Positions 4,024-22,564 of a DNA stretch of 35,211 bases are shown piece by piece. This DNA is from Ktedonobacterales bacterium (GTDB lineage: Bacteria; Chloroflexota; Ktedonobacteria; Ktedonobacterales; DATBGS01). Numbering within the stretch: the first letter of the stretch is position 1; every line of letters starts with the position of its first letter. The position numbers and the translations under genes were made by a program. The notes beneath the pieces were generated by a model. That model made no database searches and was not told where the DNA came from. It was given only the letters and a program-made list of their open reading frames with translations. The stretch is taken from positions 1 to 35,211 of the forward strand of contig DATBHW010000067.1 of the NCBI GenBank assembly GCA_036557285.1, given 5' to 3'.

Positions 4024-4052
4024 TTCTTGTGAATGAGATTCATTCACAAGAA
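4024..4052. promoter_or_regulatory. Perfect palindromic TetR-family operator (FadR-like core)
   Basis: Two perfect 13-bp arms, TTCTTGTGAATGA and its reverse complement, flank a 3-nt spacer GAT. The core TGAATGA-N3-TCATTCA is close to the TGAATGA-N4-TCATTCA box of Bacillus-type FadR (YsiA). It ends 27 nt before the regulator's ATG, so autoregulation is the simplest reading. Confidence 0.75.
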
Positions 4053-14486: not shown

Positions 14487-17400
14487 CTATTCCTGGCGCG
14501 TCCCGCGCGCCCCAGCATCCGGGGCATCGCTCCTGACCTCATTCTGAACGCTTCCGCCGGTCAGCGTTGGCATCTCATCTATCGGCTGATCGTCCGCAGC
14601 AGGCGCTTCCGCGCCCGGCTTCGTGCGTGAGCGTTTCGGTTTTCCTCTGGTCGGCGCTTTCTTCTCAAGCGTTGTCGTGATCTCGTCGCTGCTGGCTGCG
14701 CTCTGCTGCTCGGCGGCTGGAGCCTGCGTCTGTACCTCCTGGGCAGTCTGTTCGGTACGGTCTTCAGCGCGCGGCTGCGCGCTTGCCACCAGGCGTTCGC
14801 GCAAAATCTCTTTGAGGCGGCGTATCTCTTCCCCAACCGACTCATCAGGCTGCATCAAGACAACGGTATTGAGAGAGGGAGGCGGCTCCCCACCTGTGGT
14901 TCCTACCGGCGAGGAGGCCGCCCGCGCCTGAGCAGATGCATCCGCTCCCTGGAAGTCGCTTTCCTCGCCACTGACCGCCGCCAGCAGGGCGTAAGCGTCC
15001 TGATCGCGCCCCGCCCGATGATAGAGCGCGGCCAGCACGTAGCTGGTCAAGGGCGCTCGCTCGATCTCCAGCGCGGCCTCGAAATCCTGCTGGGCCTGTT
15101 CCAGTTGGCCGCGCTCTTCGTAGATTTGCCCGCGCTCCAGCAGCGCCCGCAGCCGCTCAGGGGCGCCGGGCTTCGCTCCGGCCAGACAGGTATCCAGGGC
15201 GTTCAGCGCCGCCCGCAGGTTCTGCGGTCCCTGCGCGTGGAGCGCGCATCCGAGGTAGAGGAAGGCCCGGCTATCGCGCTCTCCCTCTTTGCTTGCCAGG
15301 TAATCTTTCAGCCGCTCAGTCGCCTGAGCATAGCGTCCCATGTGATACAGGGCGCAAGCGGCAAAGAAGCGCGCATCTACATACCGGCGCACGACCTGAT
15401 CGAGCGCGGCAAACGCTTCGTCAAAGCGCCCCTGCTCAAAAGCTGCGCGACCTTTGACGCGCAGCAGAACGTCACGCTCTGGATAGAGCCGGGGATAATG
15501 GGTCACACGTATCTGAGCAACGGCGGGGTTGCCTATCAACTGCAAGGTCTGATCGGCCATTGCCAGGGCCGGGGTCATCTCACCACGTACCATCAAGACG
15601 TGCGCGCAGAGCGTGGCCGCCGGGATATGCTGCGCTATCAGGCGCAGCACCTCTTGAGCCGAGTTGAGCGCCGCATCCATATTGCCCTGTTCCAGAGAGG
15701 TCAGGGCCAGCCCATACCACGCCTGCGCGCTCTGCCGATCCACACTCAACGCGCGCCGGAACCAGAGATCGGCCTGGGATGGCTGCTGAGCTTCAAAGAG
15801 TTCCGCCATGCCCGCCGCGATATAGATAGGCGCGGCTGTCGGCAGTTGCAGCTTCGCCTGCATCTCCTCTTCCAACAGGGCGCGCTCGATAATCGAGCGC
15901 GCCCGCCTCCAACGCTCCGCGTTCACCGTCTGAGCAGGGATCGTCGTGGTTGTCGAGAGCAGCGGCGTCTGCAAGACATCGAGCAGCGTCTCAGCATACG
16001 TGCGCACGACCAGGAACCAGCCCAATTCTTTCTCGGTCACTTCCTCCAGCAGCGCCAGCGCCTCGCTGCTCTGCTGCTCGCGCGCATACGCCACCGCGCG
16101 ATAGAACGGCAAGGCCCGGTCATCGCGGCGTTGGGACGCGGCGACCTCCAGGTGCGCGCGAGCGAGCGCGGCGTCCCCTACAGCCAGCCGACACAATCCG
16201 GCATTTATCCGCGCCCAGGGGAGCGTTCCGTCAAGCTGGACGACGGCTTCGTTCAACGCCAGCAGCAGACGCAGATCGTGGCGGGCCGCCAGTTCCGGCA
16301 GAAAGGTATCTGAGCGCCAGGGCGCGGCTTTTTCGCTGTTGGCTCCGCTGCCCGCTTCTTCAGCCTTCACCGGCTGCGCGTTGGCCGGGGGAACAGGCGC
16401 CAACCCGCAGACGCGCCGCTCCAGCGCGCTCACGACCAGCCCCAGGCGCACATTGGTCTTGACCGCGGCGCTGAGGGGCGTTTTCTGGTGAAGCTGGCGC
16501 TGCGCCGCCGACCAGGCGCGGCAGTAGCTGAGCAGGAAATGCCCATAGCGCGCGCGATCCTGGAGCAGTGACTCTGGCACATAATCCGACGCCAGCAGCC
16601 AGCCCAGCCCCAACCACTCGCCCCGCTTGAGATCGCGTAGTTCGACAGCGCCAACAAGGTAGAGCGTTGCTTCTTTGACCCCTTCGCCGCCAGGCTCCAG
16701 CGATGCCTGCGCCAGCACCAGCCGCGCCTCGGCCACCGCTTCGGCTGCTGCAACAGCGCCCTGTTGCAGCAGCCGCTCTTTGCCCAGCACATCGGCCAGG
16801 TCGGCGAGCCGCTGATAGAGGCCCAACCCCTCTAGCCGCAGTTCACCGTCAACCGCATCCACCCACTTGCGCCCTAGCTTTGCCAGTTCCTGGCAATAAG
16901 TTGGCAAGGAGCGCCGGTTCAGGCGGCGCAGCGCGCTATTCACGATGAGAAAGGCCAGGATCGCAAAGCCCCAGCAGCACAAAAAAGGCAGGATGAGCGG
17001 CCATCTGTCGAGATACCAACCCAGCCGGACCATTACGAGGATAGCGGCAACCGCCAGGATTTGGAAGGGGATCAGCAGCCAGATGCGCCCGTTCATCCGG
17101 CCATAGGCCGTACAGATCCGCTCTTCCAGCGGCGCCAGCAAGCCGATAACGGGCGTTTCATATGGCCCGCGCAGCCGCGCCTGGCCGCGCGCCAGCCGCT
17201 GGGCCGCATTTCCAGAGGCATCGTAGAAAAGCGCCAGCAAGCCCGCCAGCGCCGCAGCCAGCACGACGCCTCTGGGGGTATATTGCGCCGTCAGGTCTGC
17301 CTGAGTAAAGCTATCCCGCTGGGCCACCACCCAGACTATCGCCATGATCGCCTGGAAAAGTGCGATACAGTTGGCGGCGACATACAGGCGAAACCAGGCG

Positions 17401-17809: not shown

Positions 17810-19495
17810 ATGCGCCGAATTGGGAACGTGGATGTGAACGAGCAGGCTCTTCAACTGGCCGAAGCCGGACAACACGATCAAGGAACAACCGATCAAGAAG
17901 CGGCGGCGCGCAAGAAACAGCGCCTCCAACGCTGGGGGTTAGTCGGCGCGGCTGCCGCTGTTCTCCTGCTTTCCATCGCGCTGCATGTCATCCACCTGGC
18001 CCAGACGCCCGGCTGGGATGGTGACGAGGGCTACAACCTCGATATTGCCTGGAATCTGCTGCATGGCCGTCTGCGCATGTTCGCATTAACCTCCGCATTT
18101 GTGCAGCATCCACCGCTTTTTTACCTGGCGCTGGCCGTCGCTATCCGCCTCTTTGGCTACAGCATGCTGACGCTGCGCGCGCTGGCCGTCTTTTACAGCG
18201 TGCTGACGACCCTGTTTCTGCTGATCCTGGGGCGGCGCATGTTTGGCCCTGGCCCGGCGCTCTGGGGCGCGCTGGCGTTTACGATTGCCCCGCTGGCCCT
18301 GGAGAATACCCGCTGGGGCTATACCTACAGCCAGTTGATGCTGCTGGCGTTCCTGGGCATCTACGCCTGCTGGCGCTACCTGGAGACACGCTCCCGGCGC
18401 TGGCTGCTGCTCGCTTCGGCGCTGGGGGCGCTGGCAATCCTCAGCGATTACGAGGGCGCGTTTCTGCCGCTGCTCACCATCCTGGTCGCCTGGCGTGTGC
18501 GTCCGCGCCATATTTTCACGGCGGCGGGCATCGGCCTGGGCATACCCCTGTTGACCACGCTGAGTCTGCTGGCGGCGACGCCCGCAACGTTCCTGAGCGA
18601 TCTGGCTGCCACCGCCGCACGCGCCGGAGGCGGCAGCCCGATTGTGCAGGCGCTCAATATCATCATCAACTTTCAGCATCTGCTCTCGCTGGATGCCTGG
18701 GTCATCCTTGGCCTGATCGGCCTCTGGCTGGTCCGCGATGCCCGGCTGCGCGGCCTGATCTTCGCGGCGCTGGCGCTGATGTTGATCGCCGTGCTCAAGG
18801 TCCGTGACCTCAACCCCTATTTCCACAGCGGCGTTCCGCTGCTCCCCTGGATTGGCCTGGGGGCGGGCCTCGCCATTGATCGAGGGATTACGACGCTTTA
18901 TTCCTGGCTGAATGGCTGGTGGGACACGCTGCTTGCCAGGGTATCTCCTGGCCCACGCTGGCTGGCAAAGCTGAAACGCTTCAGCGTAGCCCTGATCCTG
19001 TTTCTGGCGCTGATCTCACCGCTGGGCATTACGATTGCCGCCGACGCGGTGGGCGTCGCCAACGGCTTGCATACCCGCATTGACACCAGCCTTGCGAATC
19101 ATCCCGACGACGCTCAGCGCGCCGCCAGCTATATCCTGGCGCACGCCCAGGCGGGCGATGTGGTGCTTTGTTCGCCACAGGTTGCCTGGCTGCTCGATGA
19201 TCCAGAAGACAGCAGCGGCCACGAAACAGGTATTCTGGCGACGGAGCCACTGCAAAGCGTCGCCTACAGCGGCCAGGGCATCGCCTTTTATCCAGCGGGC
19301 CTGGGAACGGATCGCTTTGCCTTCGACCCTTCAGCCGCTGCCGCGCGCTTTGCTATTGTGGATAATTTCTGGCGCGCCCTGGCTGCGCCCGATCAAGCGC
19401 CCCAGGTGAAACCGCTGCTCACGCTGGTCGAAAGCTGGCCTGCTGTCTATCACGTGGGCGAATATACCATCTACGAACAAGGGGCGGCGCAATGA
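17810..19495 (+). CDS. GT39-type membrane glycosyltransferase (ArnT/PMT-like)
   Basis: A 561-residue polytopic protein of the GT-C fold (PMT_2/ArnT-like), which transfers a sugar from a polyprenyl-phosphate donor on the outer face of the membrane. The N-terminal TM helix is followed by TPGWDGDEGYNLDIAWNLLHG, with the acidic DE pair expected in the first periplasmic loop, then QHPPLFYLAL, another family landmark. About 10-11 more helices follow, and a soluble C-terminal domain from about residue 400 (HPDDAQRAASYILAHAQAGDVVLCSP). ATG 17810 is the first ATG of the frame. It overlaps the next gene by 4 bp (ATGA), so the two are coupled. Acceptor, lipid or protein, unknown. Confidence 0.88.
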   Translation: MRRIGNVDVNEQALQLAEAGQHDQGTTDQEAAARKKQRLQRWGLVGAAAAVLLLSIALHVIHLAQTPGWDGDEGYNLDIAWNLLHGRLRMFALTSAFVQHPPLFYLALAVAIRLFGYSMLTLRALAVFYSVLTTLFLLILGRRMFGPGPALWGALAFTIAPLALENTRWGYTYSQLMLLAFLGIYACWRYLETRSRRWLLLASALGALAILSDYEGAFLPLLTILVAWRVRPRHIFTAAGIGLGIPLLTTLSLLAATPATFLSDLAATAARAGGGSPIVQALNIIINFQHLLSLDAWVILGLIGLWLVRDARLRGLIFAALALMLIAVLKVRDLNPYFHSGVPLLPWIGLGAGLAIDRGITTLYSWLNGWWDTLLARVSPGPRWLAKLKRFSVALILFLALISPLGITIAADAVGVANGLHTRIDTSLANHPDDAQRAASYILAHAQAGDVVLCSPQVAWLLDDPEDSSGHETGILATEPLQSVAYSGQGIAFYPAGLGTDRFAFDPSAAAARFAIVDNFWRALAAPDQAPQVKPLLTLVESWPAVYHVGEYTIYEQGAAQ

Positions 19496-21342
19496 GCAAA
19501 GAGCGGTTGGCAGAGCATAGTCAGAGCGAGGCGGCGCTGGCAGAAAAGCCTGTGGTGATGCAGCCAGTTACAGCGCAGCAGCGCCGCCGCGATTGTCTGA
19601 TTTTGCTCGCGCTGGGGCTGCTGCTGCGCGCGCTCACAGCGGCGCTCTTCGATCAGCCAGGGTATATTGACGCCGCTTATTATTACGATGTAGCGAAAAA
19701 TATCGCTGTCGGGCATGGCTTCCGCGAGGATTTTATCCTGGTCTACCTCACCCCGGCAGCGAATGTGGTCCATCCCAGCAATCTCTACTGGATGCCGCTG
19801 GCCTCGTTGATAATCGTCCCTTTCTTTCTGCTGTTTGGGGTTTCCTGGCATGTCGCCCAGATTCCCAGCGTGCTGCTGAGCGGGTCGCTGCCCTTGCTGG
19901 CCTATTGGATCGGCTGGGATTACTTTCACAGCCGCCGCTATGCCATCGGCGCGGCGCTGCTTACCCTGTGCGCTGGCTTCTATTACCCGCTCTATTTCGT
20001 CTTCAGCGACAATTTCGGCCTCTATGCGTGGACGGCAGGGCTGGCGCTGCTCTTTTTAGGGCAGGGCGCACAGGGCCGCCCACGCCGCTTCGCTCTGGCT
20101 GGCCTCTGGATTGGTCTGGCGCACCTGGCGCGGCCCGACGCTCCGCTGCTGCTGGTAATCGCCCTGCTCCTCTTCGCCGCGACGCGCTATCGCGCCTGGC
20201 GGGTGGCCCGCCAGGGTCTCCGACAGAAAGAAACGCTACCGGCGGCGCTCCCCTGGTCTTCCCTGGCGGCGCTGCTGGCCCTCTACCTGCTGATTATGGC
20301 GCCCTGGTTCCTGCGCAACCTGATCGTCGCCGGAGCCATTCTGCCACCCGGAGGGGCCGAGACGATCTGGCTCACGACCTATAACGACTTCTTCAGCTAT
20401 GGGAAAGACGTGTCTTTCCAGAGCTATCTGGCCTGGGGGTGGGACAACATCCTGCTCTCGAAGATTCAGGCACTGGGCCAGAACGCCTTCGCCATCCTGG
20501 CGATTCTGGAGTTCGCTCCTGCGCCCTTCGTGGCTATTGGCCTCTGGCGTCTGCGGCGCTCGCTGCAAGCCCTGCCGTTTCTGCTGTATCTGCTCTTGCT
20601 CTACCTGGGCCTCTCGCTGGTCTTCACGTTCCCCAGCCTGCGAGGCACCCTGCTGCATTCTTTTGTTCCCTTGCTGCCATTTCTCAGCCTGGGCGCTATC
20701 CTGGGCCTGGATACGACCATTGATTGGCTGGCCCGCCTGCGGCCTGGCCCTTTCGCCCGACAGCGAGCGGCAGGACGCCGCCGCGTCTATCTGGCTGCTA
20801 TGATTTTGCTTTCGGTGGTGCTTTCTATCTTCATCGTTCTTTCTAACGCCTGGACCTGGGACACCACCTATCATACCTATCAGCAGGCTGGCAAGATCAT
20901 CGCTCGTGACGCCAGCAGCGTCTCTGGCGCGGGTGCTGGCATGAAGAGCGGGCAAAGCGCCTTGCAAGGCGCTTTGCCCGTCGTGATGGTTTCTGATCCA
21001 CCTGATTATTATTTTGCTACCGGCCAGAACGCCATCGTTCTTCCTGACCAGGGTATGGCCGTTATCCTTCAGGCCGCCGACCGCTATGGCGCTTCGTACC
21101 TTCTGCTGGAACCTCTGCACAGCCAGGCACAGGACGCGCTCTGGAGCGGCGCTGAACGCTCGCCGCGCCTTCGGCTGCTCTGGTCAACGCCCACTGCCCA
21201 TCTCTACCGCATCATCGCCAGCCAGCGCGGCAGCTTCCCATCTTCCTCTGCTCGCCAGGAGACAGAGGGGGCCGAACCAGCCAGCGCCCCCGAAGCACGC
21301 CTGGCAATGCCACCTCTGAATGAGCGCAGAAACACTGCCTGA
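19492..21342 (+). CDS. Second GT39-type membrane glycosyltransferase
   Basis: A 616-residue polytopic GT-C protein, paralogous in layout to its upstream partner. The first loop reads FDQPGYIDAAYYYDVAKNIAVGHGF and is followed by VVHPSNLYWMPLASL; the acidic residue in the loop is the usual catalytic candidate. Around ten TM helices run to about residue 460. A soluble C-terminal part (SDPPDYYFATGQNAIVLPDQ) closes with a disordered Ala/Glu tail. Residues about 487-496 (GQSALQGALP) are encoded by a perfect 32-bp palindrome and look like an insertion into the soluble domain. Translationally coupled to the upstream gene by ATGA overlap. A small GC hairpin (21346-21358) follows the stop. The convergent csrA begins 58 nt further. 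Confidence 0.87.
   Translation: MSKERLAEHSQSEAALAEKPVVMQPVTAQQRRRDCLILLALGLLLRALTAALFDQPGYIDAAYYYDVAKNIAVGHGFREDFILVYLTPAANVVHPSNLYWMPLASLIIVPFFLLFGVSWHVAQIPSVLLSGSLPLLAYWIGWDYFHSRRYAIGAALLTLCAGFYYPLYFVFSDNFGLYAWTAGLALLFLGQGAQGRPRRFALAGLWIGLAHLARPDAPLLLVIALLLFAATRYRAWRVARQGLRQKETLPAALPWSSLAALLALYLLIMAPWFLRNLIVAGAILPPGGAETIWLTTYNDFFSYGKDVSFQSYLAWGWDNILLSKIQALGQNAFAILAILEFAPAPFVAIGLWRLRRSLQALPFLLYLLLLYLGLSLVFTFPSLRGTLLHSFVPLLPFLSLGAILGLDTTIDWLARLRPGPFARQRAAGRRRVYLAAMILLSVVLSIFIVLSNAWTWDTTYHTYQQAGKIIARDASSVSGAGAGMKSGQSALQGALPVVMVSDPPDYYFATGQNAIVLPDQGMAVILQAADRYGASYLLLEPLHSQAQDALWSGAERSPRLRLLWSTPTAHLYRIIASQRGSFPSSSARQETEGAEPASAPEARLAMPPLNERRNTA
20949..20980. repeat. Perfect 32-bp palindrome inside a coding region
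   Basis: The left half CGGGCAAAGCGCCTTG is followed directly by its exact reverse complement, with no spacer. It keeps the glycosyltransferase frame open. Form and GC content suggest a REP-type mobile palindrome. Confidence 0.85.
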
Positions 21343-21400: not shown

Positions 21401-21862
21401 TCAGGTGCGCTTTTGCTCTCCTTCGTCGGGCGCTTTCTCTTCAGGCTCCTCGGATTGGCTCTGCTGAGCCAGGGTAATCTGCTGGCGGCCCTGGGTGCGC
21501 GGGTTATCTGTTGATTGCTCTGCTGAGTACCCATTGCGAGGAGGGAGCGTGCCATCCGGCGTCGAGAGGGCACGGTTCAGCATGGCCCGCAAGTCACGGC
21601 GTCCAGTGACCCCTTCCGTCGAAGGTTCCTGGCCGGATTTACCACCGCCCGCCTCACCCTCACCTTCACCGCCCTGACCCAGCTTGCGCGCCGCGCGATT
21701 CTCCTGGGAAACGGCATCGAGCAACTCCTGGCGCACAATCACGACATCGGGCGGCGCATTGATACCCAGCTTCACCCGCTCGCCCTCAACTGCCAGCACA
21801 TAGACGGTAATCACCCCATTCAGGACAATCGCTTCGCCTACTTTACGACGCAATACGAGCAT
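21401..21862 (-). CDS. csrA: Carbon storage regulator CsrA with long C-terminal extension
   Basis: Residues 1 to about 60 are a complete CsrA/RsmA domain: MLVLRRKVGEAIVLNG, then ITVYVLAVEGERVKLGINAPPDVVIVRQELL, including the RNA-contacting N-terminal strand and the VxRxE segment. CsrA dimers bind GGA motifs in mRNA leaders and change translation or stability. Usual length is 60-75 residues; here about 90 extra residues rich in Gly, Glu, Gln and Ser follow, probably disordered. ATG 21860-21862 is the conserved family start; the frame extends upstream to 21904 without family support. The leader has GGA motifs and a hairpin near the start codon, so autoregulation is plausible. It is not in a flagellar operon here, unlike many csrA genes outside the Proteobacteria. 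Confidence 0.92.
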   Translation of the reverse strand: MLVLRRKVGEAIVLNGVITVYVLAVEGERVKLGINAPPDVVIVRQELLDAVSQENRAARKLGQGGEGEGEAGGGKSGQEPSTEGVTGRRDLRAMLNRALSTPDGTLPPRNGYSAEQSTDNPRTQGRQQITLAQQSQSEEPEEKAPDEGEQKRT

Positions 21863-22564
21863 CCTACACGCTCCCTTCTCTGGCGCCTGCTGCCGAGCCT
21901 TCAATTGTCGGCAGGACTGAATGATCCATCACGTACAGCATATATTCTCTCCATCTGGAGACGGCACGCCCGCCACTGGGTTCTCTATCCAGCTTTTTCT
22001 CAGGCAGCTTCAACACCGGCCCTACCAGCATCAGAAACCGCAACAGATATGCCAGATACCCCACCACCGGTGCGCAATCGCACATTACAAATCCATTCCC
22101 AACAACACTCAACCCTTTTTTTACTTCTATCCACATCAGCCTGATCAGGATGGCCTTTGCACTGACAGGCAAGCCGGGCCGCCTGCAATCTCAGCGGCCT
22201 GGCACTTTTCACCCCTCCTCCTCTCTACTAGTAGAAACCTCTGGCGCGCCGGTTTAGTCACAACCAACCAGACTCGTCCTCCATGTCAACTGATGCTTTC
22301 CTTAGAGCGCCTCTCAGGTAAGAAGACGCGCAGACTACCTTTCTCGATAGCCTGCGCTCCCTGCATAGTCAGCGCCCCTGGCAGCCCCTTATGCCCGCTC
22401 CGATTGCCGCTACCACTTTGCGTTATCTTGGTCTATTTCACCGGGCGCTGAGATTTTTGCGCCGCTCTTCAATTGTTTGTTTTGACATTCAAGCGGAAAG
22501 GATTATGTAGATAGTAACTCCCTTTCGTTTTCCTGTCAACAGGGGGTGTCGGAAAATGATGCCG
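21863..22564. other. 700-bp gene-free stretch upstream of csrA
   Basis: Several open frames cross it on both strands but none has a recognisable family or ribosome site. Seen directly are a 7-bp hairpin in the csrA leader (CTGCCGA 21890-21896 with TCGGCAG 21909-21915) and a 10-bp GC-rich stem at 22173-22203. The right end (22445-22464) has a weak GGCGC/GCGCC hairpin just beyond the ychF stop. Base composition falls to a more even AT content than in the genes. Confidence 0.5.
22173..22203 (+). terminator. Orphan terminator-like hairpin
   Basis: GCCGGGCCGC pairs with GCGGCCTGGC (one G-U pair, 11-nt loop) and is followed on the plus strand by ACTTTTC. No plus-strand gene ends here. Confidence 0.35.

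Follow-up and report, generated by a model that had tools for sequence, protein, structure and literature searches.

We found that the 32-bp perfect palindrome at positions 20949-20980 of the window (the whole 35,211-nucleotide stretch of Ktedonobacterales DNA analyzed here) lies in coding sequence as a single copy, within a tolerant protein linker, and that it most likely arose as a fold-back duplication. Its two 16-nt arms are 100% complementary and meet without a loop, and it lies in frame in the open reading frame at 19492-21342 on the forward strand, confirming the original prediction on all of these points. The features on which the analysis turns are the following.

19492..21342 (+): host gene for a protein of 616 aa that matches PMT_2 (PF13231), is predicted to have many helices, and has strands in its C-terminal domain
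20908..20949 (+): lengthened linker DASSVSGAGAGMKS, residues 473-486
20949..20980 (strand not applicable): perfect palindrome, 16+16 nt, no loop
20949..20964 (+): left arm CGGGCAAAGCGCCTTG
20965..20980 (+): right arm CAAGGCGCTTTGCCCG
20950..20979 (+): ten codons encoding GQSALQGALP, residues 487-496, with the symmetry axis at a codon boundary

The 30 bp at 20950-20979 make up ten codons with the axis between codons 5 and 6, and the codons that mirror each other across it are exact reverse complements in 5 of 5 pairs (GGG/CCC, CAA/TTG, AGC/GCT, GCC/GGC, and TTG/CAA). This palindrome is real and not a product of chance. In 1,587,481 bases of the genome to which it belongs (the window plus 80 stretches of the 5,115,258-base assembly), 7 zero-loop palindromes with arms of at least 16 nt were seen where 0.0007 were expected; the one at 20949-20980 was the only zero-loop palindrome with arms of at least 12 nt to be called inside coding sequence, the coding and intergenic calls being hexamer-score predictions made here rather than curated annotation. 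Shuffling of synonymous codons in the 651 genes predicted within the first 0.8 Mb produced no palindrome with arms of at least 14 nt and a loop of 0-12 nt in 10 rounds, and when the peptide was held fixed, a 16-nt arm was reached by 27 of 300,000 synonymous codings. The ten codons are also uncommon by the standards of this genome, ranking 8th lowest in codon commonness among the 607 ten-codon windows of the host gene, which fits codons dictated by symmetry but would equally fit any non-coding origin.

Against this background, chance or an assembly artifact is a barely credible explanation. Palindromes do trouble assembly, and 3 of the 29 contig starts looked at open exactly with one; on the other side stand the expectation given above for 1.59 Mb and the gene itself, which is in frame and homologous on both sides of the palindrome, a continuity that a simple fold-back artifact would not give. 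The contigs that open in this way are C2, C11, and C12 (L111 1-58, L117 1-38, and L119 1-43); their palindromes have perfect arms, two without a loop and one with a 3-nt loop, and look as if the assembly broke there.

The host protein looks like a membrane sugar-transfer-type enzyme of the PMT_2 type, judging from a domain match that is weak but over threshold (27.3 bits versus a cut-off of 26.1), and the palindrome codons are placed in its lengthened linker, preceding the soluble domain. A structure model puts residues 478-495 in a low-confidence coil between a helix (422-478) and a strand (497-500); this model is weak (3 sequences, mean pLDDT of 61.2) and was used for coil placement alone. 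No solved structure gave a sequence match at E <= 1, and the neighboring gene at 17810-19495 is only a distant PMT_2 relative, uninformative on the linker. Across the window, Rfam at gathering scores returned one tRNA and nothing else. On the reverse strand at 21401-21904, the window also holds an open reading frame of 167 aa, counted from a provisional start codon; its CsrA domain spans residues 15-66 and is followed by a long additional C-terminal portion.

Relatives of the host protein were collected by a search of the phylum (400 genomes, 67 matching at E <= 1e-30 including our own; only the best places were fetched, giving 28 new loci, L033-L060), a search of the order (47 genomes, 2 matching at 1e-20 including our own), and a search of GTDB contigs (2 loci). 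The comparison was run on 34 loci; L005 fell below the alignment cut-off, leaving 33, and as L004 and L006 belong to the same gene of genome G028, these represent 32 relatives, one of which (L007) is another, distant protein from G028. L008, a further fragment from a gene already represented, was left out. The linker is short in 31 of the 32 aligned relatives, where the stretch ahead of the V-V-M-V strand is a short turn. The exception is the nearest ortholog, from G028 (a different family of the same order; its pieces show 53% and 61% identity), so that a long linker was found only in the window protein and in this ortholog. The original prediction had placed the segment at a variable linker, in a permissive protein site, and had proposed a protein alignment of orthologs to see whether it is missing from them; in our alignment it is absent from the relatives, and the site proved permissive in the sense that the G028 ortholog carries something else there. 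Judged from the alignment, the ten-codon segment is an addition.

What the G028 ortholog carries, in frame and at the same place in the linker, is a different palindromic repeat that is dispersed in its genome. A 22-mer from the G028 linker has 47 matches in that genome at up to 3 mismatches versus 11 for the reversed control, and a longer CTCCCCTCTCCCGTCGC...GGGG body is common to several of the 20 copies read (L091, L094, L096, L107, and L110). The P-V at the right end of the palindrome segment is its sole likeness to G028. It therefore appears that this linker tolerates palindromic DNA and that two lineages have filled it differently. A different loop of the G028 ortholog (L006 253-2334, reverse strand) also holds a long insert, where CTCCC/GAGGGG looks repeat-like by eye.

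The palindrome had originally been explained as a REP-type or mobile palindrome, with BLASTN against the same genome as the proposed check; this part of the prediction did not hold. BLAST of the palindrome against its own genome (a draft of 82 contigs) found no second copy, and a 20-mer from it, searched in the same genome with up to 3 mismatches, gave 1+1 matches, both of them the site itself, and 0 others. Elsewhere in the order (46 genomes), 28 matches to this 20-mer were found, all with 2-3 mismatches; the reversed control gave 21 across the full set of 47 genomes, and the rest of the palindrome was missing in 19 of 19 fetched matches (5-9 mismatches of 10). An exact 30-mer search of viral contigs found none, BLAST against phages gave no match, and BLAST against plasmids gave three weak partial matches (E of 0.04-0.5). 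A copy of a mobile palindrome or REP was thus rejected on copy number in all of these collections.

The anatomy points the same way. REP-type sequences have many genomic copies, and this palindrome was found in one place only; it has no GTAG tag, and its stem of 14-16 bp has G+C ends. As described in PMC3733652, GTAG REP stems are mostly 6-9 bp and up to 13 bp, and CGTC REP stems measure 8-9 bp, have A/T as their first two positions, and in most cases carry a CCA tail. The letters CGTC do overlap the right end of the palindrome (CCCGTC), where the GTC codon encodes V and G028 also has V. Chloroflexi are named in the same source among the holders of GTAG-tagged REPs (PMC3733652), and our genome indeed holds an abundant family of this look (CTTGTAGCGCCGCCTTCCAGGCGGC), for which a genome-wide search allowing up to 2 mismatches gave 325 + 363 = 688 matches versus 4 for the control; unlike the palindrome at 20949-20980, this family is multi-copy and lies between genes, and its sequence is different, on which ground kinship was rejected. 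In the first 0.8 Mb, 74 of 78 matches lay between genes, and the 4 called as coding sequence, all of which were read, proved to be ordinary coding sequence without the GTAG tag, leaving 0 of the 78 sampled matches as a REP inside a gene. The abundant GTAG-type REPs include L029 12195-12251 and others with the pattern GCCGCCTTCCAGGCGGC; some stand in head-to-head pairs, and many lie within larger repeated blocks.

A REP- or RPE-like (Rickettsia palindromic element-like) mobile palindrome could still have inserted in frame and be the only copy left or assembled, an explanation that we consider improbable. It draws on the G028 linker repeat, which indicates that palindromic elements can enter this site, on published in-gene REPs, including different REPs near the same recB site in two Xanthomonas (PMC3733652), and on the draft state of the assembly (96.93% complete). 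It is opposed by the lack of a second copy in our genome or of a recognizable one in the order, by the missing GTAG tag and a stem whose length and ends are unlike those of the CGTC families, by the REP family of this genome being unseen inside genes, and by flanks in which no direct repeat of 2-9 nt was found around either the 30- or the 32-bp unit. As with Rickettsia palindromic elements, the segment is in frame, in a tolerant site, and absent from orthologs; dispersed in-frame copies in unrelated genes were found neither in our genome nor in the order.

A single arm of the palindrome gave a less simple picture. At up to 2 mismatches, the half-arm has 34 matches in its own genome, 2 of which are the site itself, versus 9 for the control, an excess that may reflect codon composition. 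If an insertion sequence had been excised and had left its two perfect terminal inverted repeats joined, such symmetry would result, but we regard a scar of this kind as very unlikely. Among the other half-arm matches, one has 1 mismatch and 31 have 2; none of the 28 of 32 places that were fetched continues as a palindrome (at least 7 mismatches of the next 15 nt compared with the second arm), and no element with the same ends was found in our genome at these 28 places. Two close half-arm pairs, on contigs C28 and C60, lie by eye inside long open frames and are not element ends, and the missing direct repeats count against a scar as well. Terminal inverted repeats of an insertion sequence were rejected on the half-arm places and on these two pairs.

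The RNA of 71 nt around the palindrome folds with a z score of -4.82 (0 of 200 shuffles were equally stable), and the stem energy is about -30 kcal/mol for 40 nt. Together with a position preceding the soluble domain, this stability would suit an mRNA hairpin selected for slowing ribosomes as they pass from the membrane part to the soluble domain, or for tuning decay or transcription. Equal folding, however, is expected of any perfect palindrome, and the hairpin is not conserved, the segment being missing in 31 of 32 relatives and having other letters in the 32nd. The site does not resemble an intrinsic terminator (stem plus T run), and no terminator or promoter was found at the palindrome; a selected hairpin is in our view distinctly improbable.

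We instead favor a local event in the tolerant linker, in which about 12-15 nt were duplicated in inverted orientation by fold-back (template switching), an account for which we hold belief and doubt to be evenly balanced. A single local mutational event would create the palindrome: during DNA synthesis, the strand would fold back or switch template at the short self-complementary turn TTGCAA, 12-15 nt of the adjoining coding sequence would be copied as the reverse complement, and the original template would then be resumed. With an added length that is a multiple of three and no stop, a linker that was already tolerant would become 4-5 codons longer ahead of the soluble domain, and the 30-bp hairpin would be a by-product with no job of its own. 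The second arm is the exact reverse complement of the adjacent arm at a single locus, and arms that are adjacent, free of errors, and present only once fit the copying of 12-15 nt by fold-back or template switching; copied lengths of 12 or 15 would keep the frame. Against the fold-back duplication, the nearest ortholog is only 53-61% identical and has an insert of its own, leaving no close relative that displays the state before the event; neither arm is clearly the older, as only the right-end P-V resembles G028; and the half-arm excess (32 others versus 9 in the control) has no explanation under it.

Other palindromes of the same genome bear on this reading. The 1.59 Mb sample contains 9 zero-loop palindromes with arms of at least 14 nt, including the one at 20949-20980, where 0.01 are expected; 2 of the 9 are at contig starts, and the remaining six (28-40 bp, intergenic or at a gene edge), judged by their first 14 nt, each occur once in the sample.

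L113 3209-3240: single-copy zero-loop palindrome
L232 8384-8423: single-copy zero-loop palindrome
L245 18349-18380: single-copy zero-loop palindrome
L258 7763-7796: single-copy zero-loop palindrome
L012 2698-2725: single-copy zero-loop palindrome
L130 2452-2481: single-copy zero-loop palindrome

Further single-copy zero-loop palindromes are what a sequence-independent process would give; as these six are intergenic or at gene edges and may have been kept by selection as transcription signals, they support a fold-back origin but do not prove it. No zero-loop palindrome with arms of at least 14 nt was found in 0.4 Mb each of G003 and G010, both of which belong to this order, consist of a single contig, and have a similar G+C content. 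At the rate of our genome, about 2.3 would be expected in each sample, or about 1.5 when 20949-20980 and the two contig starts are excluded (6 in 1.55 Mb), and the two zeros are therefore weak evidence. A broader possibility, which we offer tentatively and think rather unlikely, is that in this lineage perfect zero-loop palindromes are made and kept throughout the genome by a process that does not depend on sequence (template switching or arm-to-arm conversion), mostly as intergenic hairpins and occasionally as new coding sequence in a tolerant linker.

Several further repeats were observed in passing. Within one TPR-protein gene of the window, 4-5 kb from 20949-20980, are palindromes at 15878-15904 (13+13 nt, loop of 1) and 16742-16775 (15+15 nt, loop of 4); a coding palindrome at 4024-4052 of the window is probably upstream of the true start and is not to be relied on. 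A 63-bp palindrome with 31-nt arms and a 1-nt loop (L020 12367-12429) lies at a predicted gene end, between convergent predicted genes. Overlapping 14-mers with the core CTGGCTGAATCTCCGCTGGAGATTGAAAC are each present 32 times in the first 0.4 Mb of the sample, the placed copies being in L016 from base 1 onward; we take this set to be a putative CRISPR repeat, which it resembles.

In the open-licence literature, as far as titles and the starts of abstracts go, no palindrome of this kind is described in this gene. On a small scale, the site cleanly illustrates a perfect palindrome turned into protein; at the corresponding linker in another genus of the order, a dispersed palindromic repeat is found instead. 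If the excess of single-copy perfect palindromes holds, this genome would offer a bacterial system in which template switching can be set against selection as the maker of perfect hairpins. Work on template-switch and quasipalindrome mutations has been carried out in E. coli and, with a focus on coding sequences, in yeast (PMC8794818, PMC7202029, and PMC8604942), and template switching is described as able to make perfect stems in a single event (PMC8794818). Those mutations likewise consist of one local event that leaves a perfect reverse-complement copy beside its source, although in our case the event is one that we infer from anatomy alone. Perfect inverted repeats inside genes are likewise described in the mitochondria of Nematomorpha (hairworms), for which template switching is given as one possible source of the perfect coding palindromes; the hairworm palindromes are numerous, reach 284 bp, and encode conserved residues in both arms (PMC6649704), whereas the present case is a lone 32-bp site whose linker is not conserved. 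The palindromic elements of Rickettsia (PMC3733652) and Wolbachia (PMC4224334), as these sources describe them, are likewise in-frame palindromic DNA in a tolerant protein region; they form multi-copy families, unlike the single copy at 20949-20980, and are the closer match for the insert in the G028 ortholog.
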